Virus record (IMG/VR): IMGVR_UViG_3300026078_000336
Coordinates: 1-22,772 of that record
Reading direction: 5' to 3' (one strand)
From: a virus
DNA length: 22,772 bases
Shown here: positions 3,600 through 22,208 of the stretch, one piece after another
Layout of the letters: each line of letters begins with the position of its first letter
Numbering within the stretch: the stretch's first letter is position 1
The notes under the pieces: generated by a model
Database searches by the model: none
What the model saw: only the letters and a program-made list of their open reading frames with translations
Told to the model about the DNA's origin: nothing
Made by a program: the position numbers and the translations under genes

Positions 3600-3670
3600 T
3601 CCCCGTTCATCTAACGGTAAGATAGCGGGCTTTGAATCCGCTCATGGTGGTTCGAGTCCATCGCGGGGAA
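3600..3670 (+). tRNA. tRNA-Gln (UUG)
   Basis: A complete cloverleaf of 71 bases can be drawn. The acceptor stem pairs TCCCCGT (3600-3606) with GCGGGGA (3663-3669), with one G-U pair. The D stem is ATCT/AGAT around AACGGTA. The anticodon stem is GCGGG/TCCGC with the loop CTTTGAA, so the anticodon is TTG and it reads CAA. The variable loop is 4 bases; the T stem GGTGG/CCATC encloses TTCGAGT. The discriminator is A3670 and CCA is not encoded. It begins 4 bases after the stop of the GroES-like gene. In a GC-rich genome where CAG should dominate, a CAA-reading tRNA may compensate for host scarcity (inference). Confidence 0.95.
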
Positions 3671-4324: not shown

Positions 4325-4564
4325 ATGCACAAGTTCGATTTCGCGGCCATCCTCTCGACAGTAGTCGGTGTGGGCGCGCTCGCGACCGATGCGGCCTTCG
4401 GGACGTATCTCCAAACCCTCTTCGGCGCTCACGCGAACGCCATCCTCGCGGCCCTGGGTGGCGCGGGCCTCCTGGCCGCCACCATCCTGCGCGTTATCTC
4501 CAATCCCTCACCGCCTGCCGGGACCGTCTCGGTGGTGGAACCCGTCGTAGCAAAGGACGCCTAG
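4325..4564 (+). CDS. Small membrane protein, possible holin, 79 aa
   Basis: Two hydrophobic helices, about residues 6-25 and 38-58, are separated by a short loop (QTLFGAHAN). A Pro/Val-rich tail lacks the charged cluster typical of many holins. AGGGAG about 6 bases before the ATG is a good ribosome site. Together with the next gene it forms a pair of small membrane proteins, the arrangement often seen for holins, but no endolysin is visible in the window. A membrane role is well supported; lysis is only a guess. Confidence 0.6.
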   Translation: MHKFDFAAILSTVVGVGALATDAAFGTYLQTLFGAHANAILAALGGAGLLAATILRVISNPSPPAGTVSVVEPVVAKDA

Positions 4565-4565
4565 T

Positions 4566-4820
4566 ATGCTCGCCAAAATCCTCTCCTGGATTCTCGCCGC
4601 TGTCGGCGTGGTCAATGCGGTCAAGCAGGTCATCCCCGGCGCGAGCGACCTGGCCTCGGTCATCGTCCGCGACCTGACGAACGATGCGGCAGAGTTTGCA
4701 GACTACGAGAACGGTCAAGCCGTGGTCTTTGCCCACGCGACCATTCCGGGCGAAACCCAACGGTGCGTCCTCGTGGCGCTCAAAGAAGGCGGACCCGCCT
4801 ACGCGAGCCTCTTCGGCTAA
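4566..4820 (+). CDS. Small protein with N-terminal membrane helix, 84 aa
   Basis: Residues 4-22 form one hydrophobic helix (ILSWILAAVGVVNAV). The rest is a soluble domain with an acidic helix (DLTNDAAEFADYENG) and a beta segment (QAVVFAHATIPGE). It starts one base after the previous stop, so it is co-translated with the preceding membrane protein. It is the last gene before a strong terminator. Function unknown. Confidence 0.6.
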   Translation: MLAKILSWILAAVGVVNAVKQVIPGASDLASVIVRDLTNDAAEFADYENGQAVVFAHATIPGETQRCVLVALKEGGPAYASLFG

Positions 4821-4926: not shown

Positions 4927-5619
4927 ATGAGCGCGGAGTTATCGGGGCCCATCAAGCAGGCGCACAATATCCTCGAAACGATGGAGTTGCCCGAGGAAAT
5001 GTTCTTGAATTGGTGGTCGCTCCTGGCCGAGCAAGACCGTTCGGAGTTCGTCCACTTCTACCAGGGCGACACCATCCTGGCCCGGTTCGTCTGCGTCTTG
5101 GACTACCTCATCATGCAGAAGGTCCAAGCGGGGCAAGAAAACCTCTTCGCGATGGCCTACTACATCGCCGCGCGCCCCTTTGGCGAGGACGCGGTAGAAA
5201 TGGGCTCGCAATCCTGCCGTACCCGCTCGCAGAAAGCCTGGCAACACCCTGCGGTCGAGGCCCTCATCGAGCGCGTCAAGTTCCGCGCCACCCGCCAGCG
5301 GGTCCTCCGCATCGGCAACCTCCTTTCCCGAAACCTCGAAACCATGCTTGAGGACGCGCACAAGGTAGACGACGAAGGCAACCCCCTGTACGGGATGAAG
5401 GAGCGCAATCTCGCGGCTATGGCGTCTATCAAATACATGGAGTTAGCAGCCAGGGAAGAAGCCGAAATCATGGCGATTCGCACCAAGGCGGGCTTGGAGA
5501 ACGCCCGCAAATCCCTGGCCGCGGGCGAGGAAGAGGTTGACCCGAAGGTGCTTGAGGGCTACGTCCGGCTGGCGAAGTCCATCCTTCCGGCTGACAAGTT
5601 GAAGGAGTTGACCGCCTAG
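4927..5619 (+). CDS. Probable terminase small subunit, 230 aa
   Basis: It lies immediately upstream of the large terminase, overlapping it by one base, the usual place for the DNA-recognition subunit. The protein is soluble and mostly helical. An N-terminal helical region (residues 1-65) has WWSLLAEQDRSEFVHFYQGD. A basic helix-rich centre (about 95-145) has several Arg pairs, and a C-terminal acidic helical segment follows. I see no certain helix-turn-helix, so the call rests mainly on gene order, size and composition. In other phages the small subunit binds the pac or cos site and stimulates the large subunit ATPase. Confidence 0.6.
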   Translation: MSAELSGPIKQAHNILETMELPEEMFLNWWSLLAEQDRSEFVHFYQGDTILARFVCVLDYLIMQKVQAGQENLFAMAYYIAARPFGEDAVEMGSQSCRTRSQKAWQHPAVEALIERVKFRATRQRVLRIGNLLSRNLETMLEDAHKVDDEGNPLYGMKERNLAAMASIKYMELAAREEAEIMAIRTKAGLENARKSLAAGEEEVDPKVLEGYVRLAKSILPADKLKELTA

Positions 5620-7253
5620 TGCCCGCCCCGACAGGCGGCATCCGGGGAGCCCTCGCGGACCACCTCCTCACGGACCTGTTCACATACATGAAAGCAACGT
5701 CAGGGATGACCCTGTATGAACAGCCGCACCGCGAGACCTGCGATTACCTCGAAAGCCTCCTCCCGCCACCGCCCGACCAGATGAAAGGAGCATCCCAAAC
5801 CAAGGGAATGTTCCTAGCAAGCCGCGAGACGCTCAAGACCTCTGCGTCGCAAAGTTTAGTCGAATACTTCATCCTCAAGTGGAAACGCCTCTACAACTAC
5901 GACGTTCGGGTGCTCATCATCCGGTCCAACCGCGAAGCGGCAAAGCAAGTCCTGGGAGCAATCTCTCAAAACCTCGGCGGCAACAACCCGGTCATCAACG
6001 AGGCGTTCGGGAACCTGAAAGAAGGCTCGCCCCTGTGGTCTGCCGAGGCGCTGACCATGAACAACCGCTCCACCAACTACCGCGAACCCACGGTCGGAAC
6101 GGCAGGCACAGAGACGCCGACGACGGGCTGGCACGTAGACCTCGTTATCATGGACGACCTCGCGAACGAAACGAACTATCTCTCCGAACGAGATATGCGA
6201 ACGGCTCGCAATAAAATCCAATCCCTGGACCCCGTGGTCAATCGGTGGGGCTCCCAAATCCTGGTCGGAACGCGGTGGGGACACAACGACCCGAGCGCCT
6301 TCATCCTGGAAATCAACGAGCGCCTGGTGAACGATGGCAAAGAGCCGGAATGGAAAACCCTCATCCGGGGATGCTACCTGGACGACGGCAGCCTCTACTA
6401 CCCGGCGCATCTTTCCGAAGCGTACATCGAGCAGAAGCGCCGCTCGCTGGAAACCAAACTGTTCACCGCCTGGTATCTCAACCAGGTCATATCCGATGAG
6501 AGCAAGGTCTTTCGCCCGGAGTTTCTCCGTTTCTACGGGGCGGAATCAACCTACACGCCGGATACGGATGACATCGCCTCGCTTGAGGTCGTCGGAGGAA
6601 CCCTGGACGGATGGAAGGGAGCGGTGCGGGCGACGGTTCACGTTGACCCTGCGGCTACGGTCGGGGCCGATTCCAACTTCACGGGCGTTGCCGTGGTGCT
6701 GACGGCGGAAGATGAGAACGGCAAGGAGCGGTACTTCATCCACGAATCCTGGAAAGGCAAGGAGGGCCCCTCGGCCATCATCGCCCGCCTCGTCGCCACC
6801 TGCACGATGTACGCCCCGCACCTGCTCTCCATCGACGTACTCGGCCAGCAGAACCTCTGGCTCTTGCCCCTCAAGGCCGCGCTGGACAAGGCGGGGATAC
6901 GGGTGCCCCTGGGCTCCTATCGCGGCCGGACGCATGACGAGAAGGTGGGCAAGGGGATTCTCGGCAAGGCCAAGCGCATCGAGGCCCTCGAACCCCTGTT
7001 CCGTAACGGGCAAATCTTCATCCGCACGGGCTACAACAACGCCCTGCTCCACGAATATAACTTCTACGATGGCCCCACGCACAGCAACCACTTCGACTTG
7101 CTCGACGCCCTGGCACACCTGCGGACGATGACGCGCAAGCCGCAACCGGATATGTTCATCGAGAACCTCGAACGCTTGGAAATGGCCGAGTTGGAGGATA
7201 TGGAAGGGCCGCGCGTCCGAAGAAAGGTGCCGGGGACCTTCGCGGGAAGGTAG
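5619..7253 (+). CDS. Terminase large subunit
   Basis: The 544-aa packaging motor has an N-terminal ATPase and a C-terminal nuclease. The Walker A-type segment is at 67-75 (ASRETLKTS, Lys 73), a divergent form of the terminase loop without the usual Gly before Lys. Walker B is VDLVIMDD (173-180), with adjacent acidic residues. The motif ILVGTRWG (214-221) is the standard coupling segment. The nuclease has D343 (HVDPA), D406 (SIDVL) and D493/D496 (HFDLLDALAH), the expected metal-binding acids. The GTG start overlaps the stop of the upstream gene by one base. It cuts concatemeric DNA and pumps it through the portal. The length is normal for a full two-domain protein. Confidence 0.93.
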   Translation: MPAPTGGIRGALADHLLTDLFTYMKATSGMTLYEQPHRETCDYLESLLPPPPDQMKGASQTKGMFLASRETLKTSASQSLVEYFILKWKRLYNYDVRVLIIRSNREAAKQVLGAISQNLGGNNPVINEAFGNLKEGSPLWSAEALTMNNRSTNYREPTVGTAGTETPTTGWHVDLVIMDDLANETNYLSERDMRTARNKIQSLDPVVNRWGSQILVGTRWGHNDPSAFILEINERLVNDGKEPEWKTLIRGCYLDDGSLYYPAHLSEAYIEQKRRSLETKLFTAWYLNQVISDESKVFRPEFLRFYGAESTYTPDTDDIASLEVVGGTLDGWKGAVRATVHVDPAATVGADSNFTGVAVVLTAEDENGKERYFIHESWKGKEGPSAIIARLVATCTMYAPHLLSIDVLGQQNLWLLPLKAALDKAGIRVPLGSYRGRTHDEKVGKGILGKAKRIEALEPLFRNGQIFIRTGYNNALLHEYNFYDGPTHSNHFDLLDALAHLRTMTRKPQPDMFIENLERLEMAELEDMEGPRVRRKVPGTFAGR

Positions 7254-7490: not shown

Positions 7491-9446
7491 TTGGGCGCGA
7501 ATATCTACGCGGAATCAACGTCGCAGCCCGAAGCGAAGATTGAGTATAAGCGCCGCAAGAACCTGACGAAATCCCAATGGGATGACCTGGCGATTAACGT
7601 CCGCCAGGGGGTTGAAGCGGCATTGGCCGGACGGGAGCCTCTCGAACAGAACCTGGCCGAATGGTCGGATATGTACGAAATGCTCACGGAAGAGAAGGAT
7701 ACTCCGTGGCCCAATAGCGCGAATCTCAAGACTCCGCTCATCGCGACGGAACTTGAAGCCCTGGTCGCCTACATCGCAGGCCAGGTCCTGGTTCCGCGTC
7801 TGTTCCTCGTGTCCGGCTTGACGCAACCCGCGGTCGATGGTGCCTCCCAGGTGGAGCGGTATCTCAACGCGGAGTTGAAGCGCCAGCGTGGCGATACCAC
7901 CTGGTTCGAGGAGTTTGTCGAATGGCTTCACCTCGCGACCCGCGACGGCACGGGCTACATCGAGGCCCTCTGGAACTACAAGAAAACCAAACTCAAGGTC
8001 TTTCTCATCCAGCCGCAGATGGCCCCGGACGAGACGGGGCAGTTGGCTCCCGTCATGGGTCCCGATGGTCTGCCCGTCATCGAGCGTATCCCCCAGGAAG
8101 TGGAGGATATTCAGAACGATGTCAACGTGCAGGCGGTAGAACTGCGGAACGTCATCACCATCCCTGCCGAGGCTACGTCTATCCAGGACGCCGCCGCCGT
8201 GTGCAAGGTCGAATACCTGTACGAAGATAGGCTCATGGAAATGGTCCATGACGGCCTGCTGGACGAAGAAGAAGTAGACCTGGCCCTGTCGATGGTGCCG
8301 ACCGGGACCACGGAACTTGCCAACTCCCAACAGCCCCTCAACACCTACACGGCAGGCGATACCCTCTCCATCGGTATCGGCCAGGGCGCGCAGACGAGTA
8401 AATTCTTCAAGAAGCGCGGTCCTATCGAGGTCTACCGGGTCCATTCCAACCAATACGACCTGGACAACGACGGGACGCCCGAAGAGAACGTCTTTTGGAT
8501 TCACTCGACCACCTGGCGGCTCTTGGGCTGGACCCGCTACGAATACTTCAATGGGCAACGCCCCTTCTTTCCGTTCTCCCCCTTCTCGCGCCCCAAGCGC
8601 CTCCTCGGATTCTCCCTGGTCGGACGCCTGGCCGGGTTGCAGAACGAACGGGACGCGCTCCGCAATCAGCGCCTGGACGAGAACAGCCTGCGCCTGAGCC
8701 CGCCCTTCATCGGCAAGAAGGGCACCTCGCTCGAAGATAACGGCTTCACCTGGGGACCCAGGGAAGTGTGGTGGACGGAGGACCCGACCGGGGACTACCG
8801 TCGCTTCGATATGCCGCCTATGCCCGCATCGGCGTACAACGAAGAGAGCCTCATTGTCCAGGACGCGAAGGAATATACGGGCCTCTCTAACCCCATGCTT
8901 GGGGCACCGAGCGGCGGGAAGCGTTCGGCTACAGAAGCGCGTATGTGGCAACAGGCGGCCATGACCCGCACGGGCCTGCTTGCGATGCGCTACCGGATGG
9001 CGATTCGCCCGGTCATCAACTTCATCTTCGCCCTGAAAAAGCAGTATCTCACCCAGGACCAATCCTTCACGGACCAGGCGGGGAACTTCACCCTGCCCCT
9101 GCAGATACTCAATCAGGACTATCAAATCGACATATCGGGCGCAAGCGACCCGATAGACGCGGCGGCCCGTCGCACCGAAACCCTCGCCGCCTACGAGGTC
9201 CTCTCGCAGAACCCCATCATCATGGGCGACCCGAAAAAACTCTTCGCGCTCACCCGCAAGTTGGTCGAATCCTTCGATTGGGGCCCCGAGGCGGACAAGA
9301 TTCTCGGAAGCGAACAAGAGGTCTTACAGAAGATTCAGCAACAGCAGGCAGCGCAGGCTGCCCAAGCAGGCCAGCAGCCCGGAGCGCCACCGCAGGGTGG
9401 TCCGCCCCAGGCTCCGCCGCAAGGCGCACAACCTCCCGCGCAGTAA
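7491..9446 (+). CDS. Portal protein
   Basis: A 651-aa protein directly after the terminase, of the size and pattern of P22-type portals. Key features are an N-terminal helical region with TPWPNSANLKTPLIATE, an acidic DNDGTPEENVFW segment, and the helix GLQNERDALRNQRLD (about 383-397), which typically precedes the channel stem. After residue 614 the tail is low complexity in Gln, Ala, Pro and Gly. The portal is the dodecameric ring at one capsid vertex through which DNA enters and leaves. The start is a TTG at 7491, six bases after the previous stop, with no clear ribosome site; no better start exists in frame near the conserved N-terminus. Confidence 0.9.
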   Translation: MGANIYAESTSQPEAKIEYKRRKNLTKSQWDDLAINVRQGVEAALAGREPLEQNLAEWSDMYEMLTEEKDTPWPNSANLKTPLIATELEALVAYIAGQVLVPRLFLVSGLTQPAVDGASQVERYLNAELKRQRGDTTWFEEFVEWLHLATRDGTGYIEALWNYKKTKLKVFLIQPQMAPDETGQLAPVMGPDGLPVIERIPQEVEDIQNDVNVQAVELRNVITIPAEATSIQDAAAVCKVEYLYEDRLMEMVHDGLLDEEEVDLALSMVPTGTTELANSQQPLNTYTAGDTLSIGIGQGAQTSKFFKKRGPIEVYRVHSNQYDLDNDGTPEENVFWIHSTTWRLLGWTRYEYFNGQRPFFPFSPFSRPKRLLGFSLVGRLAGLQNERDALRNQRLDENSLRLSPPFIGKKGTSLEDNGFTWGPREVWWTEDPTGDYRRFDMPPMPASAYNEESLIVQDAKEYTGLSNPMLGAPSGGKRSATEARMWQQAAMTRTGLLAMRYRMAIRPVINFIFALKKQYLTQDQSFTDQAGNFTLPLQILNQDYQIDISGASDPIDAAARRTETLAAYEVLSQNPIIMGDPKKLFALTRKLVESFDWGPEADKILGSEQEVLQKIQQQQAAQAAQAGQQPGAPPQGGPPQAPPQGAQPPAQ

Positions 9447-12114: not shown

Positions 12115-13080
12115 ATGGCAGGACTTATCAATACCCGCACTTCTACCCAGGCTCGAACGAAGGTCCTGGAAGCGACGTTTATGAACGAGTTGAAGGCGGG
12201 TATCCCGCCGCTCTACTCGCGCGTCGTGAACGTCATCACGCCAACGGCGAAGCGGTCGGTTATGACCGTCCTCCCGATGGCGGGCCTCGGGACCACGGAG
12301 TTTAAGGGCGAAGGTCAGGCTCCGGCTTACGACCAACCCTACGAACTCATCCCGCTCTCGTCCACGTTCTTCACCTACGCCCTGGCGGTCAAGGCCACCG
12401 AGGAAGCGCAGGAGGACGACATCAGCAACCTGGTTGCCGATATTCCGGCGCAGTTGGCGAAGTCGAGCCGCGACTCGAAGGATTTGGTTATCAACCAACT
12501 CTTCAACCTGGCCTTCAATGCGAACGTCCTCTACAACGACGGACAGCCGTTGTGTTCGACGGCGCATCCGCTCGGCCCGGTTTCGACGCCCACGGGTATC
12601 TTCGCCTCGGCGGGGACGTTCTCGAACAGCCTCGGCGCGACGGCGCTCACGCCCGAATCGCTCCAGCAGGCGTACATCCTGTTCGCCACGTTGCTGAACG
12701 ACCGTGGCCTTCCGGACCAGCGCACCCCGCGTTGCCTCATGGTGCCCACGGGCATGGTGAAGCAGGCGCAGGAAATCGTCGGCTCGGCCAAGGCTCCGTA
12801 CACGAACGACAACCAGGTCAACGTCCTGGAAGGAACCGTCGAGGTCCTCGGCAATCGCTACCTGACCAACGCGAACAATTGGTTCGTGCTTGGCAACCAG
12901 GGCGACCCGTTCAAGGGTGGCGACAACCACCAACTGTTCGCTGCCTTCAAGAAGGTGTCGGCGTACAAGGCGTGGACCGATGGCGAGACGGACAACTACA
13001 ACCAGAAGGTTAGCGACCGCTACACCTACAACGCGGCGGGCTGGCGCGGTCTGGTCGGCAGCATCGGTTCGGCGGGCTAA
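12115..13080 (+). CDS. Major capsid protein (HK97-fold type)
   Basis: A 321-aa protein with the hallmarks of capsid proteins of the Mu-gpT-like type. The N-terminal region is helical (TSTQARTKVLEATFMNEL), followed by a strand-rich E-loop-like part with FKGEGQAPAYDQ. The central signature DGQPLCSTAHPLG (about 141-153) corresponds to the x-L-F-S-T-x-H-P motif of this group. The C-terminal domain ends with the DGETDNY and WRGLVGSIG segments. GGAG 8 bases ahead of the ATG is a good ribosome site. The protein forms the icosahedral shell. No maturation protease is visible nearby, and the N-terminus shows no delta-domain. Confidence 0.88.
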   Translation: MAGLINTRTSTQARTKVLEATFMNELKAGIPPLYSRVVNVITPTAKRSVMTVLPMAGLGTTEFKGEGQAPAYDQPYELIPLSSTFFTYALAVKATEEAQEDDISNLVADIPAQLAKSSRDSKDLVINQLFNLAFNANVLYNDGQPLCSTAHPLGPVSTPTGIFASAGTFSNSLGATALTPESLQQAYILFATLLNDRGLPDQRTPRCLMVPTGMVKQAQEIVGSAKAPYTNDNQVNVLEGTVEVLGNRYLTNANNWFVLGNQGDPFKGGDNHQLFAAFKKVSAYKAWTDGETDNYNQKVSDRYTYNAAGWRGLVGSIGSAG

Positions 13081-14139: not shown

Positions 14140-14967
14140 ATGAAGGCTTCGGAGGTTGCAAGCCTCGCGCAACTGTGGTCCGGCGAGCAGAACGTCGGGC
14201 AGACCTGGACGCCTTCGCAATGGCTTCAGGCGGTTGACCGCGCGCAGAAAACCCTCGTGCGGGACCTCAAATGGCCCCCGTCGCGGTTTCTGTTCACCTC
14301 TACGCCTCAGGTCCAGGAATACCAACTGCAGGAAGTGCTGCTCATCTTGCGCGTGTACGTCAACGGGCAGATTCTCCCGCGAACGTCCATCCCGCAACTC
14401 GAAGGCGAACAGTTGCAGGTCGATGACCAGAGCGGCAACGTCGGCGGTCCTTCGGGCCTCGTCTCGCCTGTTGCGCCTCCGGTAATCGCCGGGGGGCAAT
14501 ACACCCCCGCGTGGACCTCGGCCCCGCCCGCCAACTATCCGGCGTCCAATAACTTCCTTTACGGAACCACCCTCTCGGCCTCCCCGTGGTTTACGGGCCA
14601 ACGGCCCATGTACTACACGCGCGGAGGGAACGTAGGGATTGTGCCTGCGCCGCTCACTGCGGTTCCCGTGGTGTGCGATGTGGTACGGCAGCCCGTTCCG
14701 CTCCAGGCGATGACCGATGATATGGTCCTGCCGGACATTTGCTCGGATGCGATGGCTTGGGACGCCTGCGAGCAGTTCTATTATTCGGTACGCGACCAGA
14801 GCGGGTCATCGGACAACCGCAACTTCGCGCACGAGAAGCGTATGGAGGCGATGCAGAAGTGCAAGGATTGGCGCAAGACGTATGAAGGGGGCATCCAGGG
14901 ACCCATTCCGCTGACCTACCGGACCTATTATCGCAAGGGCCAACGACGATTGGGGAATGACGTATGA
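14140..14967 (+). CDS. Head-tail adaptor (connector) protein
   Basis: The 275-aa protein begins with an amphipathic helical domain (ASLAQLWSGEQNVGQTWTPSQWLQAVDRAQ) followed by WPPSRFLFTSTPQVQEYQLQEVLLILRVYVNG. The latter is the strand pair commonly seen in gp4/gp11-type adaptors of podovirus-like phages. Around 157-171, MYYTRGGNVGIVPAP matches the Y-x-R-G-G-x-x-G-x-x-P-x-P signature. The C-terminus is helical and basic (EKRMEAMQKCKDWRKTYEGG). Adaptors dock under the portal and link it to the tail. The ATG has AAGGGG just upstream, and the stop overlaps the next start by 4 bases. Confidence 0.75.
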   Translation: MKASEVASLAQLWSGEQNVGQTWTPSQWLQAVDRAQKTLVRDLKWPPSRFLFTSTPQVQEYQLQEVLLILRVYVNGQILPRTSIPQLEGEQLQVDDQSGNVGGPSGLVSPVAPPVIAGGQYTPAWTSAPPANYPASNNFLYGTTLSASPWFTGQRPMYYTRGGNVGIVPAPLTAVPVVCDVVRQPVPLQAMTDDMVLPDICSDAMAWDACEQFYYSVRDQSGSSDNRNFAHEKRMEAMQKCKDWRKTYEGGIQGPIPLTYRTYYRKGQRRLGNDV

Positions 14968-15515
14968 CGTATCCTTCCGGGTTGAATCTCGAATACGCCG
15001 ACGCGGGCGTGGTCTCCATCGACCCTGGCTTTGAATATCAAGGCCAGGAAACGGGGGCGCTCTACGTCGAGACGCGCATCATTCAGGGCGCAATCTATAA
15101 CGTCCAGAACGCGACCTGGAACAAGTTTGCTCAAGTGTGGTCGCTTGTCGATGTCACGAAGCCCGCCAACGGGTTCTTGCTCGATGCGAGCGGGGTATTC
15201 TCGGTCATCACCTCGCCAAGCGGAACCACGCCGTTCACCGTATGGACGACCACCGGGGTCTTGAGCCTGCAACGCTCGGGAACGCAGGCGTCCGTACCTG
15301 CGGATGGTTCGGCGGCGGTGACGATTTCGTACTCCTCGCCCTTTCCGACCGCGACGAGCGCGGTGGTGCCGTCCATCATCAACGATTATCAGGCGAACCC
15401 GTGGGGCCTTACGGTGCAAATAACCGGGGTAACGAAAACCGGGTTCACGGTCAATGTCGCAGGTGCGCCTTCTGGCGCGACCGTCTCTGTGGGGTATATC
15501 GCCAATGGAAATTAA
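14964..15515 (+). CDS. Structural protein with C-terminal beta-sandwich, 183 aa
   Basis: ATGA overlap with the adaptor gene. Residues 1-105 form an unrecognised strand-rich domain. From about 110 the sequence VPADGSAAVTIS, then PF near 128, then TGVTKTGFTVNVAGAPSG and a terminal Y-I-A-N-G-N, has the layout of the small lectin-like sandwich that ends many phage fibre proteins (P-F-x-x-P, T-x-T-G-F-x-V, terminal A-x-G). The 101-aa protein at 18044 has the same pattern. It may be a tail-surface or collar protein. The stop overlaps the hydrolase gene by 11 bases. Confidence 0.65.
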   Translation: MTYPSGLNLEYADAGVVSIDPGFEYQGQETGALYVETRIIQGAIYNVQNATWNKFAQVWSLVDVTKPANGFLLDASGVFSVITSPSGTTPFTVWTTTGVLSLQRSGTQASVPADGSAAVTISYSSPFPTATSAVVPSIINDYQANPWGLTVQITGVTKTGFTVNVAGAPSGATVSVGYIANGN

Positions 15516-17073
15516 GAAGATTCTCCCCAGGGTTCCGGGGTGGGCGATGCTCACGCTGGCAATCCTCGCGTCGTTCCTGGTCGGCGGTCAAGCCGCAACG
15601 GTCGTCTACAACGGCAGCCTCGCGGTTCCTACGGGCGGGTCGATTACGAACAGTAACTTCCCCTCAGGCAATGAGGTATTCACGACGACGGGAGGGCTGT
15701 TCACCTCCGCCCCCGTACCCGCGGCGACGATTAACCCGTCCTCAACGACGACCGCGACGTTCTATTTCGCGGGAGATTCCATCACCTATGGCCTGGGCAT
15801 CAACAACCAGACGGCGCTCGGGTGCTCGGGATACACGTACCCTTCGCCCTGTTTCGCAGACCAGGTTTCCTCGTACTTCGGGGCCACGGAATCGAACAAG
15901 GGCGTCCCGTCTACGTGCTTGGAATCGACCACGACAGTTGGGAGCCTGTGCAATCCTGCCGTAGCCACCCCGCTCATCACCTCGTACACGACGAGTCTCT
16001 TGCCCCATGCCGGAGCCAACAACAATTGGTTCTGGATTATGATAGGAACGAACGATACGGCGTGCGCGTCCTATCTCTGCAACTCCGAGGCCGCCGTGGA
16101 CACGCAGGTCAACGTAGCGACGTACAAGGCGGACCTGGCGACTATCGTCTCGGCACTTGAGAGTGCGGGGACGCCGGGGAATCAAATCGTCCTCTCGGAG
16201 ATTATCCAGAACATTTATATCTCGCAGACGCTGGCAAACACGCTCGCGCCTACGGCCCTGGTGCAGAACTTCAACACGGCCATTGCGGAAGTGGCCCTGC
16301 AGTACCACACGCGCCTGGCGACCTCGTACCACGCGACCGGGCAATGTATCCCGAACGTCTCCACGCAAGTCAACCCGTGCCTCTTCGATAACGTCCACCC
16401 GAACAACACGGGCCATGCGAATATCGCCTTGGAGTACGAGGCGGCAACGCAATCCAATGCGCTGACGGCGCGCGCGGCGTATGCGTCCAATGCGACCCTC
16501 AACTCCGTTCAGGCGGTGACGAATCCGTACAACGCACAGTTCTCGGTCAAGACGCTCAACGTGACGGGAACCACCTCCTCGCTCTACGGACCCTTGAGCA
16601 CCTATCGGTTGCTGAATTGGGGAACGGCGGCGAGCACGGCGGGCGGCTTCATGAATATCGGCACGGGCGCAAGTACGGCGGCAGGTGTCGCGGGAACGTG
16701 CCTCATCCTCTTCCCGGGAGCGAGCCCGCCACCGGGCGGTGTGGATATGACGGTCAACTGCCTCTCGGGGGACATCGGCTCGGGGGGAACGGTGAAGTAT
16801 GCGGTCCCGGTCGCCACGACGTGCACCTCCGCGGCGGTGCTGGCCTGCATCTTCTCGTGGACGTGCACGATGAGCAGCGGGGCGTGTACGACGACGCAGG
16901 CGATTCCGTCTGGCGCGACGTGTACGGTTCAAGCGAATGTCACGCCTCGCATAAGTTCCACGAACATCGTTACGGATTGGGTGACCGTTTCCGGAACGGT
17001 GCTGACGGTGCACGTCACCGATATGCTGGCATCAGCATCCTCGGCGTTCTCCGGCGTCGGAAGTTGCGTCTAA
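15505..17073 (+). CDS. Exported SGNH/GDSL hydrolase with cysteine-rich C-terminus
   Basis: Residues 1-30 form a signal peptide: charged KK, hydrophobic 12-27, then GQA as cleavage site. After it comes VYNGSLAVP, shared with neighbouring genes. The hydrolase core has block I FAGDSITYG with nucleophile S92, block II NKG (131-133), block III GTND with N183, and block V FDNVHP with D295 and H298, the full set expected for an active esterase/deacetylase. Residues 320-395 form a probable linker; 420-522 hold six cysteines (440, 448, 454, 461, 473, 521) in a domain shared with the next gene. Such enzymes often remove acetyl groups from polysaccharides. I use the ATG at 15505; an upstream in-frame ATG would bury the signal peptide. 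Confidence 0.88.
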   Translation: MEIKKILPRVPGWAMLTLAILASFLVGGQAATVVYNGSLAVPTGGSITNSNFPSGNEVFTTTGGLFTSAPVPAATINPSSTTTATFYFAGDSITYGLGINNQTALGCSGYTYPSPCFADQVSSYFGATESNKGVPSTCLESTTTVGSLCNPAVATPLITSYTTSLLPHAGANNNWFWIMIGTNDTACASYLCNSEAAVDTQVNVATYKADLATIVSALESAGTPGNQIVLSEIIQNIYISQTLANTLAPTALVQNFNTAIAEVALQYHTRLATSYHATGQCIPNVSTQVNPCLFDNVHPNNTGHANIALEYEAATQSNALTARAAYASNATLNSVQAVTNPYNAQFSVKTLNVTGTTSSLYGPLSTYRLLNWGTAASTAGGFMNIGTGASTAAGVAGTCLILFPGASPPPGGVDMTVNCLSGDIGSGGTVKYAVPVATTCTSAAVLACIFSWTCTMSSGACTTTQAIPSGATCTVQANVTPRISSTNIVTDWVTVSGTVLTVHVTDMLASASSAFSGVGSCV

Positions 17074-17085
17074 AGGAGGCATCAC

Positions 17086-18036
17086 ATGAAGAAACTACTG
17101 CTTGCTCTCGCCGTCTGTGCGATGCTTCCTCTGGTGGCCCTTGCGGATTCTCCGCTCGCGACCTACAGCGGAAGCCTTGCGGCGACGGGCACCTCGGTCC
17201 CGCTCTCGCTTGCGGGGCAATCCACCTGTGCGGTGGTCCTGTCAGGAACCTGGACCGGAACGGCGACGTTCCAGGGCTCGGGCGATAACGGCGCGACCTG
17301 GAACACGGTCACGAATATCAACACCGGAACGGCGACGGCCAACGGGACGTATGGCGGGAACATCGCCCCGTACCTTACGCGGTTCCGCGTCTCGTGGGCG
17401 CGCTCGACCGGAACCCTGGTCTACTTCGAGGCGTGTTCGGCTACGGTGAGTGCGAACGGGGGTCTTGGTCCGAACCCGGTTTTTACGGGGAGCGTGGTCG
17501 GTAACGCAGGTGCGGCCACGCCTTCTCCTGCACCCACGGGTTTCAACGGCCCTTTCGTCGTCGCGCAAGCAACGGCGCTTCCGACCGGACAGCCTGGCAA
17601 TATTGGCGTAACCGGGAGCGTCCAAGTGGTCAACGGCACGTTCTCGGGAGGGTACGTCAACTGCAATGGGTTTGCGGCGGTATGCGCGCCGACGCTTATG
17701 GTATCCAACACGGGGCGCATTTCTCTGGCTTCGGGCGGTGGCTCGATTACGGGGACGATTCCCTTCACTTCTCCGACCCATGCCATCGTGTGTTCGTCTA
17801 CGAGCGACCTCCCGTGCGTGGCGACGGGAACGTGCAGCCTCTCCGCAGCGACCACCTGCAACTTCACGACCTCGGTCCCGGCAAGTTCCAACTGCGATGC
17901 GACTCGGAACAACAGCGATACGACCACGGGGGTTTCCTCGTGGAAGGCGTCCTTGACCACGACCACGTTGACCGTTACGGTCACGGCGGCGGCCTCGCAG
18001 ACGACGACCGCCGCCGTGAATATCCATTGTCTGTGA
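17086..18036 (+). CDS. Exported structural-type protein with six-cysteine C-terminal domain
   Basis: The strongest ribosome site in the window (AAAGGAGG) precedes the ATG. Residues 1-20 are a classic Sec signal peptide (MKKLLLALAVCAMLPLVALA, cleavage before DSP). Next is ATYSGSLAATG, matching the mature N-termini of neighbours. Residues 45-118 form a beta-sandwich common in phage tail proteins (SGTWTGTATFQGSGDNGATW, then FRVSWARSTGTL). A low-complexity linker leads to a C-terminal domain from about 218 with cysteines 236, 244, 250, 258, 270 and 315, spaced almost as in the hydrolase. No catalytic motif. The cysteines suggest disulfides formed outside the cytoplasm. The partner or target is unknown. 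Confidence 0.8.
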   Translation: MKKLLLALAVCAMLPLVALADSPLATYSGSLAATGTSVPLSLAGQSTCAVVLSGTWTGTATFQGSGDNGATWNTVTNINTGTATANGTYGGNIAPYLTRFRVSWARSTGTLVYFEACSATVSANGGLGPNPVFTGSVVGNAGAATPSPAPTGFNGPFVVAQATALPTGQPGNIGVTGSVQVVNGTFSGGYVNCNGFAAVCAPTLMVSNTGRISLASGGGSITGTIPFTSPTHAIVCSSTSDLPCVATGTCSLSAATTCNFTTSVPASSNCDATRNNSDTTTGVSSWKASLTTTTLTVTVTAAASQTTTAAVNIHCL

Positions 18037-18043
18037 GGGCGGC

Positions 18044-18349
18044 ATGACGCAGATAGTGTCTCAGGACTTCCGCTTCGCTACGCCGCAACAGGGGGCTACC
18101 TTGACCACGCAACCTTGGTCCGCATCCTCCGTTCCCCTGGACGGTTCGAGTTCGGTGGTTGTTCCGTTTCTCGACCCGTTCGCCCAATATTGCAATGCGG
18201 TGAACCCGCAGTATAACCCCAATGCCCTCACGGGCTACGTCCTGGCCCCGGAGATTACGGATGTCACGACGCAAGGGTTCACGCTCACGGTCTACGGTGG
18301 CCCTTCGGGCATGACGGGGCCCTTCTTCGGAACGGCGACGGGCATATGA
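18044..18349 (+). CDS. Small beta-sandwich protein, 101 aa
   Basis: No signal peptide, unlike its neighbours. Residues 31-101 share a pattern with the end of the 14964 gene: VPLDGS, alternating strand SVVVP, PF, then ITDVTTQGFTLTVYGGPSG and a terminal G-T-A-T-G-I. This looks like a diverged duplicate of the lectin-like sandwich. The start is ATG 18044 with a weak GAGGG; the stop overlaps the next gene by 4 bases (ATGA). It is probably a tail or fibre accessory made together with the S74 protein. Confidence 0.65.
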   Translation: MTQIVSQDFRFATPQQGATLTTQPWSASSVPLDGSSSVVVPFLDPFAQYCNAVNPQYNPNALTGYVLAPEITDVTTQGFTLTVYGGPSGMTGPFFGTATGI

Positions 18350-19215
18350 GACGGCTTCTGCTGGCGCTGGCTCTCGTGCTGTTCCCGGCGACCGCCTCGG
18401 CGGGGGCGCTCTACACGGGCTCGCTCTATGTGCCGATTGGCTCGACGGTCACGTTGCAGGGTTCGACGGTCGGGTGCGCCCTGTTCAATGGCTCGGGGGT
18501 TCTCTACGAGGGCGTGTGCCCTTCGGGGACGGCAGCGTTCTCCGGGACGTTGCCCATCGTCATCACGGGCTCGGGTCCGTATGCCATCACCTGTCCTACC
18601 TGCTTCACGACGGCAGGCGGGTCGGTGTCCGGTGCGACCACCTTCTCGTCGCTCCTCACGGCAAGCGCGGGCATCAACAGTACGTCTACGGGAGTTCCGG
18701 TCACGAGCGGCGCGTCGGGGTTCGCGTCTGCGGGATACTACCTGGGCTCGACCGCTGGCTTCACGAAACTCTCGACCACGGGAACGTCGGTCTGCGGCGG
18801 GGTCACGGGCAACGCGCTGACCATCACCTCCAATGCCACCCCCATCATCGGTATCGACCAGGCGGGGAATCTCTGCGCCATCGGGACCATCTACTATACC
18901 TCCGACCCGAAGGCCAAGACGGACATCGCGGTGGCGCATATCGACGGGCTTGCGGCCATCCGTGGCGCAGACTTCGACTTGTCCTGGCGCTACAAGGGCT
19001 CGAACCAGGTGCATTACGGGCCGATGGCGACCCAACTCCCCTCCTTCATTTCCGGCCCCAACCACGACCATATCGACACGCAAGCCCTCGCGACGACGGA
19101 AGCCATCGCCATCCAGCAGTTGAGCAACCAGGTCGAGGCGATGCGCTGGATGGTCGCAATCCTGGCGGGCCTTCTCGTCCTGATTGGATGCGTGGCAGTT
19201 GGTCGGCGGGCGTAG
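18346..19215 (+). CDS. Exported S74-chaperone fibre-like protein with C-terminal TM helix
   Basis: Residues 1-19 are a signal peptide (MRRLLLALALVLFPATASA). The mature start ALYTGSLYVP resembles the two preceding exported proteins. Residues 30-180 are Gly/Ser/Thr-rich and strand-like, with several cysteines. Residues 185-267 match the peptidase S74 intramolecular chaperone of tailspikes: S186-D-x3-K191 as the expected Ser-Lys dyad, I-x-x-I-x-G-L, a Y-G-P-M-A-T-Q-L segment in place of I-A-Q-E-V, and a helix with Q-Q-L-S-N-Q-V-E. Residues 268-285 are a membrane helix ending GRRA. S74 domains drive trimer folding and then cut themselves off; here the released part would stay membrane-bound. Both termini point to the membrane. 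Confidence 0.82.
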   Translation: MRRLLLALALVLFPATASAGALYTGSLYVPIGSTVTLQGSTVGCALFNGSGVLYEGVCPSGTAAFSGTLPIVITGSGPYAITCPTCFTTAGGSVSGATTFSSLLTASAGINSTSTGVPVTSGASGFASAGYYLGSTAGFTKLSTTGTSVCGGVTGNALTITSNATPIIGIDQAGNLCAIGTIYYTSDPKAKTDIAVAHIDGLAAIRGADFDLSWRYKGSNQVHYGPMATQLPSFISGPNHDHIDTQALATTEAIAIQQLSNQVEAMRWMVAILAGLLVLIGCVAVGRRA

Positions 19216-20038
19216 GGTCCTCGCAGGGGTTCTCCTTGCGCTCACGCTAGCCATCTCCGGGTCGCAGACGCTGACCCGCGGCTATCTCTATAGCAACATC
19301 GGCACCCTGTTCACCTGGGCCTCTTCCGCGCAAGCGGGATGGAACGGTAGTTCCCAGGTAGCGACCTGCGCCGACTTCGCCACCTATATCCAGAACGACG
19401 GGACCCCCTGCGTTTCCAGCGTGGCGACCCTCTTGGATTCCTACGCGCTTGCCCATGCGGTCAACAGCGTTACGCATAGCCCCCTCGTAGCCAACGGGAC
19501 GTTCTTGAACGGCACCTTCTCGCCGTGGACGAGTGCGAATACGGGCGCGTGTTCGGGGGTCATCACCTTCGCGGGACAACCCGTAAGCCCGGACTACAAC
19601 GGGGACAACGGCGTGGCGGCGGCCTCCTCGGGAACGTGCGTAGCAACCCCGGCAGAGACGACGTTGACGCAGGTGTTCTCCATCGCGGGAACGCCTACGG
19701 TGCAGACGTACTTCTTCGCCTACCGTGCGTTGCAATCGACCTACGGGGACCCGGATTGTACCGTCGCTTCGGGCTCCGTCTCGATGCTGTTGAAGATGAA
19801 CGGCACCACGGTGGCATCCATCGCAAGCCCAGCGCTTGACGGGGCTTGGCATACGGTAAGTGGAACGATGACCGCTATGGCGAACGGTTCAAACACCCTC
19901 GTTCTCGATGCTACTCTTGCGGGCGCTACGGGGGCCACGCAGATTTTCCGGCCTGGCATTGGCGATGTCTGCAAGCCCGCCGTCACCGTAGCGCAACCGT
20001 TGCAGGTGGACGACTTCATCCTCTCGGCGGTGTTCTAG
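19184..20038 (+). CDS. Exported carbohydrate-binding-like protein, 284 aa
   Basis: Hydrophobic residues 12-26 after an Arg pair (RRVLAGVLLALTLAIS) form a signal peptide or anchor. The start is uncertain: TTG at 19184 or TTG at 19199, both inside the previous gene, with no clear ribosome site. From about 104 the sequence NGTFLNGTFSPW opens a jelly-roll of carbohydrate-binding type (CBM4/9-like N-G-x-F-x-x-G-x-x-x-W). Further strands (TLTQVFSIAGTPTVQTYFFAYRA, AWHTVSGTMTAMANGSNTLVLDA) and a closing DDFILSAVF fit this. Two cysteine pairs may form disulfides. It probably binds sugars at the cell surface; the fold is inferred by pattern. Confidence 0.65.
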   Translation: MDAWQLVGGRRVLAGVLLALTLAISGSQTLTRGYLYSNIGTLFTWASSAQAGWNGSSQVATCADFATYIQNDGTPCVSSVATLLDSYALAHAVNSVTHSPLVANGTFLNGTFSPWTSANTGACSGVITFAGQPVSPDYNGDNGVAAASSGTCVATPAETTLTQVFSIAGTPTVQTYFFAYRALQSTYGDPDCTVASGSVSMLLKMNGTTVASIASPALDGAWHTVSGTMTAMANGSNTLVLDATLAGATGATQIFRPGIGDVCKPAVTVAQPLQVDDFILSAVF

Positions 20039-20039
20039 G

Positions 20040-22208
20040 ATGCAGGAGTTGCTGCGCGTCGGCCCCTTCGGCGGCCTGAATACCTCGACGGAACCCTACT
20101 ACCTCACGCCCGAACAGGCGTCTCAGGTAAGCAACGTCGATGTCTCGTATCGTCTGGGGGCGTTCTCCACGGCCTTCGGTCGGGACATTCTCGGAGAGAT
20201 TACGCTTTCTCCGGGCTATGCGTTGACGGCGGCGGCAGAGTTCCGGGCCTTCTACGGAGAGCCTCCGGCCTCCAAGCGGCTCATCATCTTCTCGTCCAGC
20301 AATGGCTCTACGAGTATCCAGGGCTACTACGATACGGATACCAATGTCACGACGACGCTTCCCAATGCCTCGGCGTTCGCGAGCGCGGTGCAGTTCGGCG
20401 CAAGCCTCTACACGGATGGCGGGGACCGCATCTTCTATCTCTCCGGGGTCCTGGCATCGGACACCTGGCAGATTCAAGTCCCCTACCCCTACTCGTACAA
20501 TGTCCAGGGAACGTATGCGACTGTCTCGGGCAATGCCCCTCTGGATACCTACACCTATGCGATAACGCTCCGCAAGGCGCAAAGCCCCTGGCAGACCTCC
20601 GGCTCCGCGCCCGATACCATCTATTCCCCGGACCTGGAATCGCTCCAAGAATCCAGCCCGGTGTTCTCGACCTCGGTCATGGTCACGGCGGGACAACAGC
20701 CCGGCTTCACCGTGCCCTCTTCGCTCAGCCTTCCCAACCTCGTTTCAGGCTTGACCACGGGCGGCGAGCAGTACTACGGGTGCCTCTATCGGTTCCGCAT
20801 CCTCAACCCCGTGTATACGTTCGTGGACTACCTCGCGAACATCGGGGTCACGACGGACCACAACGGCGACCCGGCCATCATCGACACCTACTCCGACGAC
20901 AAGATAGCGGATAACGCAACCCTCATCTTCCATCGCGACCCGCCCCCGATTATCGGCCAGACCTACCCCGGAGCCATTGCGAACAACTCCTCGTCTACGA
21001 GTTTGCAAGAGAGTTCGCAACAGGTGTCCTTCACCTACACGAACCCGGCCTTTCTCTGCTCCCACAAAGGGCGTATGTGGGTGTTCACGCTCTATCCGGC
21101 AGAACCCGTAGGCTCTTCTCCGGTGGTCATCCCCGATGAGTTGACCCTGCAACCGCAGGTCTGGTGTTCGGACTACAACGTGCCGTGGCAGTTCAACGAC
21201 GACTCGGCCAACAACCAGGTCCTCCTCGTGGGGCCCGAAGATACGCCCGGCAACGGGTCGGTCACGGGAAGCATCGCTACGAATCCGCCCTGGACGCCGG
21301 GGGTGCTGGACGACACGCCGATGGGGATGGCCTCCACGGGCTCCTATCTCGTCCTTTTCAAGAGCCAGCGCACGTACATCGTCTTGGGAGATACGCCTTC
21401 GGAGTTCATCGTCCAGCAGGGCTTTGACATCGGGTGCGTGTCCTCCAAGTCCGTTGCTCCCGCCGAGGGCGGTATCTTTTGGCTCGCCCCGCAGGGCGCA
21501 TACTTCTTCAACGGCGGAAGCCCGGAGTATATCAGCGAGGACATTCGCGGCACCCTGGATGGTCTACCCTGGGCCAATCTCCAAGGGGCCATCGGGTCGT
21601 ACCGGGATAAGACCTACTACCTCTCCGTGCCGGAATCGTCCATCACGTTCTGCTACTACATTCCCACGAAGAAGTGGTACACGCTGCCCTATGCGTGTAC
21701 GGCGGCGCTCTACTCGCCCGCAAACCGCAATAGCCTCCTGTTCCTGAATCCCGCGACCAACGCATCCCAAGTGCAAGCGGTAGACACGAACCCCGGATTG
21801 GACCTGGGGCAGCCCATCACGGCCACCTGGAACATGGGGGTAACGGATTCCAAGGTGCCGGGACAACTCAAAGCCTACACCTATCTGCAAATCGTCGCCT
21901 CGGTCCAGCCGGGAACCATCATCGCGCAATTGCACTTGGACGAAGGCTCGGCCATCCCGACCACCTACGAAGTGCATTTCGATGCCGCTCAGGGCAATGG
22001 CGCGCACGTCGCCAAGTTGCCGCAAGCGATGCGCGGCTATGAAGCGCGGCTGACCGTGAGCGTAACGACGGACGCCAACGCTACGGCCCCTATCGTCATC
22101 CGCTCGGCGGTGGTCAGTGGCGAGGTGGTGCATACGTTGCAGGCTCCGCAGACCACGGACATCACGAAAGCCACCCTCAACGGCGCGCAGGTGTACCCCA
22201 TTGTCTAG
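20040..22208 (+). CDS. Large tail protein, probable beta-propeller hub (gp10/gp12-like)
   Basis: The 722-aa protein opens with GPFGGLNTSTEPYYLTPEQASQVSNVDVS, the R-V-G-P-F-x-G-x-N and Q-x-x-x-x-N-V-D/R signature of the tail-hub proteins of P22- and T7-like phages. Many repeated strand blocks follow, typical of a propeller: STIQGYYDTDTNVTTTLPNA-type blades, GSYLVLFKSQRTYIVLG and GGIFWLAPQGAYFFNGG, the last two very characteristic. There is no signal peptide. The C-terminal 170 residues form a separate strand-rich domain. It would plug or extend the tail below the adaptor. The start ATG lies one base after the previous stop. Confidence 0.75.
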   Translation: MQELLRVGPFGGLNTSTEPYYLTPEQASQVSNVDVSYRLGAFSTAFGRDILGEITLSPGYALTAAAEFRAFYGEPPASKRLIIFSSSNGSTSIQGYYDTDTNVTTTLPNASAFASAVQFGASLYTDGGDRIFYLSGVLASDTWQIQVPYPYSYNVQGTYATVSGNAPLDTYTYAITLRKAQSPWQTSGSAPDTIYSPDLESLQESSPVFSTSVMVTAGQQPGFTVPSSLSLPNLVSGLTTGGEQYYGCLYRFRILNPVYTFVDYLANIGVTTDHNGDPAIIDTYSDDKIADNATLIFHRDPPPIIGQTYPGAIANNSSSTSLQESSQQVSFTYTNPAFLCSHKGRMWVFTLYPAEPVGSSPVVIPDELTLQPQVWCSDYNVPWQFNDDSANNQVLLVGPEDTPGNGSVTGSIATNPPWTPGVLDDTPMGMASTGSYLVLFKSQRTYIVLGDTPSEFIVQQGFDIGCVSSKSVAPAEGGIFWLAPQGAYFFNGGSPEYISEDIRGTLDGLPWANLQGAIGSYRDKTYYLSVPESSITFCYYIPTKKWYTLPYACTAALYSPANRNSLLFLNPATNASQVQAVDTNPGLDLGQPITATWNMGVTDSKVPGQLKAYTYLQIVASVQPGTIIAQLHLDEGSAIPTTYEVHFDAAQGNGAHVAKLPQAMRGYEARLTVSVTTDANATAPIVIRSAVVSGEVVHTLQAPQTTDITKATLNGAQVYPIV

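Follow-up and report, generated by a model that had tools for sequence, protein, structure and literature searches.

The window analysed here, a podovirus-type genome fragment of 22,772 bases and 62% GC (IMG/VR record IMGVR_UViG_3300026078_000336), may well carry a cassette, belonging to an uncultured podovirus family, whose late-expressed products are disulfide-bonded appendage proteins exported by Sec; we hold this reading with about as much confidence as reservation. Export of the cassette proteins is likely, and considerably more secure than their role. It is well supported because the proteins carry predicted signal peptides and even numbers of cysteines, because the arrangement is conserved in the family, and because the signals diverge in sequence with their character kept.

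Genome context of the cassette

Six genes, named here by their first base, lie between the genes for the tail adaptor and the tail nozzle: 14964, 15505, 17086, 18044, 18346 and 19184 (Table 1). The gene calls and coordinates of the first-pass annotation of this DNA were correct. A charged, hydrophobic leader is found in four of the six (15505, 17086, 18346 and 19184); 14964 and 18044 are without a signal peptide. The genes follow one another closely within the late virion run (successive gaps of −11, +12, +7, −4, −32 and +1 bases), and the nozzle gene at 20040 begins one base past the end of the cassette. A promoter search of the cassette gave no signal exceeding chance, which together with the packing fits late expression. 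Elsewhere in the window, weak dual-specificity phosphatase family matches lie upstream of the head genes (1515-1997), and a tRNA-Gln (ttg) gene occupies 3600-3670.

Table 1. Coordinates of the cassette and of neighbouring head and tail genes in the window, with the evidence for each assignment. A slash marks a cut site.
Feature	Position	Strand	Evidence
Terminase large subunit	5619..7253	+	phrog_38 E 6e-43; 28% identity to relatives L181/L185
Portal protein (used for family search)	7491..9446	+	phrog_1216 E 2e-18; 33-34% identity to L181-L185, E 1e-91 to 1e-98
Major capsid protein, Mu-gpT type	12115..13080	+	PF25209 E 1.8e-9; 36-38% identity to L181/L185
Tail adaptor	14140..14967	+	27-29% identity to same-position gene in L181/L185; weak phrog_10775
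Fibre-like gene without signal peptide	14964..15515	+	C-terminal lectin-like domain about 15288-15482
Predicted exported GDSL/SGNH esterase-type protein, 522 aa	15505..17073	+	PF13472 E 2.6e-12 at aa 88-305; 16 Cys in mature part
Predicted signal peptide of 15505	15505..15594	+	predicted cut GGQA/ATVVYNGSL; score 8.7
Six-Cys C-terminal domain of 15505, common to 17086	16822..17067	+	BLAST E 2e-4
Predicted exported disulfide-rich protein, 316 aa	17086..18036	+	10 Cys in mature part; leader score
Predicted signal peptide of 17086	17086..17145	+	predicted cut VALA/DSPLATYSGSL; score 12.2; RBS AAAGGAGG upstream
Six-Cys C-terminal domain of 17086	17791..18030	+	BLAST match to 15505 domain
Lectin-like domain protein without signal peptide, 101 aa	18044..18349	+	E 9e-11 to C-terminal domain of 14964; signal score −16.5
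Predicted exported fibre-like protein with S74-like C-terminal chaperone domain, 289 aa	18346..19215	+	S74 E 0.024, sub-threshold; hhalign E 4.7e-5
Predicted signal peptide of 18346	18346..18402	+	probable cut TASA/GALYTGSL; score 12.6; scorer's best site 2 residues earlier
S74-like motif region (SDPKAKTDI...) of 18346	18901..19035	+	S74 model match, hhalign
C-terminal transmembrane segment of 18346, ending GRRA	19129..19212	+	19-residue hydropathy 2.56
Probable exported protein, 284 aa, 6 Cys	19184..20038	+	signal score 3.6; CBM_4_9 E 0.029, sub-threshold
Probable signal peptide or anchor of 19184	19184..19258	+	TTG start; possible cut after A-I-S
Tail nozzle/stabilisation protein	20040..22208	+	phrog_511 E 2.6e-15; 29-31% identity over main segment to relatives

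Signal peptides of the cassette proteins

Leaders were evaluated with a home-made von Heijne-type scorer trained on 38 known signal peptides. In a leave-one-out control, 37 of the 38 known signal peptides scored at least 7, and 734 internal starts of window proteins, taken as the negative control, reached a top score of 3.3. The leaders of 15505, 17086 and 18346 scored 8.7 to 12.6 and that of 19184 scored 3.6; the remaining window genes all scored below 1, except for an 84-residue protein at 4566 (11.1). When 68 virion or late genes from four model phages (T7, P22, lambda and N4) were scored, lambda Lom, a known exported protein, was the only one flagged.

A positive n-region, a hydrophobic core and an A-x-A-type site are clear in three of the cassette leaders and weak in one. 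Signal peptides had been proposed for all four genes: the leaders of 15505, 17086 and 18346 clearly have the form of textbook Sec signal peptides, and that of 19184 is weaker and a probable signal peptide. The mature start Y-x-G-S-L, also remarked on before, is indeed present in three proteins (VYNGSL, TYSGSL and LYTGSL), and the N-termini of 15505 and 18346 match each other weakly (E 0.015). The ATG of 15505 sits within a longer frame opening at 15454, and a clear signal peptide follows from the 15505 start only. The 84-residue protein (4566-4820), with its signal-like N-terminus, adjoins a conserved two-segment holin-like gene at 4325 and is probably a membrane protein.

Cysteine content of the mature parts

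The mature parts of 15505, 17086, 18346 and 19184 contain 16, 10, 6 and 6 cysteines, respectively (2.4-3.4%), versus 0-6 cysteines (0-1.45%) in the other 15 late proteins of the window (p 0.0016). Odd cysteine totals turn even once the cysteines of the signal or of the C-terminal membrane segment are excluded. The seven signal-bearing proteins of the relatives described below have 18, 8, 2, 4, 8, 8 and 16 mature cysteines. For the window and the relatives taken together, counts are even in 11 of 11 signal-bearing proteins (p 5e-4) versus 11 of 32 without a signal, the parity p-values being approximate because some of the proteins tested are homologous. Cysteine makes up 1.98% of the signal-bearing proteins of the relatives versus 0.48% of those without a signal, an enrichment of about 4-fold (p 5e-5). 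With cysteines that are both even in number and enriched, the mature parts appear suited to an oxidising compartment.

The individual cassette proteins

The first-pass annotation had described an esterase-type enzyme, a disulfide-rich partner, a self-cleaving membrane-anchored fibre-like protein and a sugar-binding-like protein. The first of these, 15505, is GDSL-like, matching PF13472 at 48 bits against a cut-off of 32.9, and the GDS, GTND and DxxH catalytic blocks are readable in its sequence. The description of 17086 is borne out by its C-terminal cysteine-rich domain, which matches that of 15505 with five cysteines aligned and one more cysteine near each C-terminus.

Protein 18346 has six cysteines outside the signal and the C-terminal segment. 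Its C-terminal fragment missed the cut-off of PF13884 (Peptidase S74; 15.3 bits versus 22), and a six-frame scan gave no S74 match at E≤10. The dyad of Peptidase S74 is Ser-x4-Lys, and SDPKAK (S-x4-K) of 18346 aligns with SDRRLK and SDRNKK of known S74 members. Single-sequence AlphaFold models, with pLDDT of 43 and 33, were too poor for structure search; the C-terminal segment of 18346 is a confident terminal helix within an otherwise poor model. The C-terminal hydrophobic segment is real and the motif is present, but the S74 match stays sub-threshold, and 18346 would at most work like an S74 fibre. The sugar-binding-like character of 19184 is likewise a resemblance, to CBM_4_9, that falls below threshold. 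Protein 14964 gave sub-threshold matches to H_lectin (E 0.0024) and Gp53-like_C (E 0.0084), and it matches the same-position gene in L185 (E 1e-5).

Relatives in the same podovirus family

Direct searches with the cassette proteins, the nozzle and the capsid protein found no close relative in IMG/VR or phage records, and profiles of the capsid and terminase reached distant podoviruses only. A portal profile built from the window and L144 recovered the family, comprising L181, L182, L183, L184 and L185. Two scans of genome contigs found no relative and so gave no host. L181 and L183/L185 share the terminase, portal, capsid and adaptor with the window, in the same order and at the identities listed in Table 1; the nozzle is common to the window, L181 and L185. 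These shared proteins indicate that the window belongs to the podovirus family of L181, L183 and L185.

Searching related genomes for the gene block, a check suggested at the outset, revealed the same type of cassette in the relatives, mainly in the gap between terminase and portal, which is another place in the head-tail region. In this gap L181 has four consecutive signal-bearing, cysteine-rich genes (868, 433, 200 and 191 residues) and L183/L185 have two (349 and 970 residues); one further signal-bearing gene lies upstream in the L181 genome (389 residues, minor-tail-like, E 8.7e-5). Two of the relatives' seven leaders had low scores (1.9 for the 200-residue protein of L181 and 2.7 for the 970-residue protein of L183), and by eye both have a charged start, a hydrophobic core and a plausible cut site. 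The large cassette proteins of the relatives are fibre-like, containing repeats with a C-x(12-18)-C pair (usually x14-15) and Gly-rich adhesin-like tips. Two L181 proteins share the mature start IPFN..F. A profile of the Cys-pair repeats found no match in the window proteins, suggesting that what the cassettes have in common is their design more than their sequence. The N-domain of 17086 resembles the 970-residue exported-type fibre of L183 in pairwise comparison only (BLAST E 6e-7, SW z 7.1), and a two-sequence N-domain profile of the relatives gave no convincing match to the window cassette proteins, 17086 included.

The 868-residue protein of L181 and the 970-residue protein of L183 are homologues, with 13% identity in the signal peptide, 57% in the N-domain and 65% at the C-terminus. 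The low identity of the signal beside that of the N-domain suggests that it has been kept as a signal and not as a docking sequence. Most pelagiphage homologues, too, are less alike in the signal than in the core; the test covers the L181/L183 pair and the pelagiphage proteins, the window proteins being without a close homologue.

Wider occurrence

Distant relatives recovered through the capsid rarely have signal-bearing genes: the strict scorer accepted 12 of their 1516 open frames. The head-tail region of terminase relatives has them repeatedly (L164, L165, L100, L142, L094 and L141), and the one in L100 encodes a CBM96 domain (E 3.6e-9). The distantly related podovirus L164 has five signal-bearing genes from the terminase to the presumed capsid gene (L164:9092-13726), one of them laminin-G-like (E 1.5e-4). 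At L141:9176-9691, a cement/head decoration match (PF09956, E 1.9e-6) carries a strong signal peptide as well as four cysteines. An 889-residue GIGTTSP-repeat protein of tail-fibre type with a strong signal peptide is encoded at L094:4075-6744, with the terminase on one side and a gene of portal size on the other.

Isolated pelagiphages, which are of various types, and two phages of Roseobacter encode a protein with four mature cysteines and varied leaders (8 of 8; several leaders score low), and in several cases a carbohydrate-binding-like partner comes next. This cassette, with its four conserved mature cysteines, relocates among these phages (L006:21475-23550, L174-L180) and is mostly annotated as hypothetical; one CRP-810 copy is annotated as OmpA family. 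Recurrence in other podoviruses, pelagiphages and Roseobacter phages shows that such a cassette is not a one-off.

Probable export, proposed role and alternative explanations

In the proposed course of events, the cassette proteins would be made together with the virion proteins and carried by Sec across the inner membrane, with loss of the signal peptide and formation of disulfides in the periplasm, a compartment that they would need because they need the disulfides. Protein 18346 would trimerise while tethered by its C-terminal segment. At lysis the proteins would meet virions or debris, and appendages for receptor binding or processing would attach to virions, during lysis or once it is over, by way of the N-terminal region that they share; alternatively, the proteins could act free on surface polysaccharide. 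Tailed-phage virions form in the cytoplasm, and virions formed there would need a post-lysis step to gain periplasmic fibres, which counts against the proposal. The most specific version, in which the family exports receptor-binding fibres via Sec, matures them in the periplasm with the help of disulfides and a self-chaperone tethered to the membrane, and fits them to cytoplasm-built virions only at lysis, is speculative and on balance unlikely.

Receptor-binding or receptor-processing appendages are favoured as the most likely role. The fibre architecture, the shared mature start and the scarcity of other obvious fibres (14964 type only) lean towards virion appendages, whereas export as such and the examples of curli and Lom favour action on the envelope. 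It is a tenable possibility that the proteins are free, never part of the virion, and alter or cover surface polysaccharide, acting from within the periplasm or once the cell has lysed, which would stop progeny from sticking to debris or siblings. Sec signals with disulfide-type cysteines, an esterase next to weak sugar-binding similarity, lambda Lom in a late region and the exported curli genes of pelagiphages (PMC9599517, PMC9004378) are all consistent with such free action. However, the fibre shafts, a domain resembling S74 and the likeness to minor tail proteins speak for parts of a virion type, export by Sec on its own would take a protein no further than the periplasm if the host is diderm, and the curli families were not matched among the window proteins scanned. 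The joint role first suggested was remodelling of the host envelope, for example against superinfection, or a virion part matured outside the membrane. Of this interpretation, export is well supported and the joint role is not; the second option is at least as good as the first, given the fibre shafts with Gly-rich tips and the minor-tail-family match in the relatives. Superinfection defence as the main job does not fare as well because the genes are packed in the late virion operon. A cassette shielding the infected cell could draw on export and on an enzyme able to alter receptors, and the same role has been proposed for pelagiphage curli (PMC9599517); it is nonetheless improbable here, with a promoter signal not above chance, little time left for exclusion by late expression in a lytic phage, and large, fibre-like proteins.

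It is similarly doubtful that the hydrophobic N-termini, instead of being export signals, serve to dock on the membrane or the virion, or are cut off in the cytoplasm. Tail parts usually stay in the cytoplasm, host OpdA removes the first 20 residues of gp7 according to the P22 record, and the signal-bearing gene of L141 resembles a capsid cement protein; yet the signal regions of homologues are not conserved as their N-domains are, cleavage motifs are present, and the cysteine counts are even only after signal removal. A lysis role for the cassette was rejected, the relatives carrying a separate amidase and a holin-like gene.

If the host envelope is its target, the cassette would represent a class of exported phage effectors; otherwise it would reveal an assembly route of tailed phages that uses two compartments. 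Screening late genes for a signal peptide together with an even cysteine count offers a way to more such cassettes.

Comparison with known systems

Like tail fibres with an S74 intramolecular chaperone, 18346 has an S-x4-K motif, placed C-terminally, and a fibre-like region upstream; unlike them, it matches the family below threshold and carries a signal peptide at the N-terminus and a membrane segment at the C-terminus. Reports of signal-bearing tail fibres were not found in the open-access literature. Lambda Lom resembles the cassette in being exported and encoded in the tail gene region, but it is a single outer-membrane protein. SGNH/GDSL domains occur in phage tail fibres. According to the abstract on Pectobacterium phage Possum, this phage has a polysaccharide-deacetylating fibre (PMC9569702), to which 15505 would compare as a polysaccharide-acting-type enzyme in a host-recognition setting; that abstract names no export signal, whereas 15505 is signal-bearing.

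HTVC023P, HTVC033P, HTVC202P, Baldr, HTVC115P, Mosig and the Roseobacter phages likewise have two or three consecutive genes, most with signal-like leaders. As in the window, the mature parts contain cysteines (four conserved), a carbohydrate-binding-like partner is present in several, and several adjoin head-tail genes; unlike the window cassette, these are without an esterase or an S74-like domain, and sequence similarity to the window proteins was not detected.

The nearest described idea is that of the pelagiphage curli, or type VIII secretion, cassettes, which are phage-carried, multi-gene, deliver their products to the host envelope and have moved between phage lineages, with proposed roles in superinfection defence, sibling capture and lysis control (PMC9599517, PMC9004378). 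The window cassette is also a phage-carried multi-gene set of exported-type proteins. Unlike the curli cassettes (CsgG/CsgF/CsgA-B), it combines esterase, cysteine-rich and fibre-like proteins inside a virion run, and none of the CsgG, CsgF and CsgA/B Pfam families was found in a scan of 10 window proteins that covered all four with a signal. Phage-encoded exported proteins are a known kind, of which the window cassette is a new variety.
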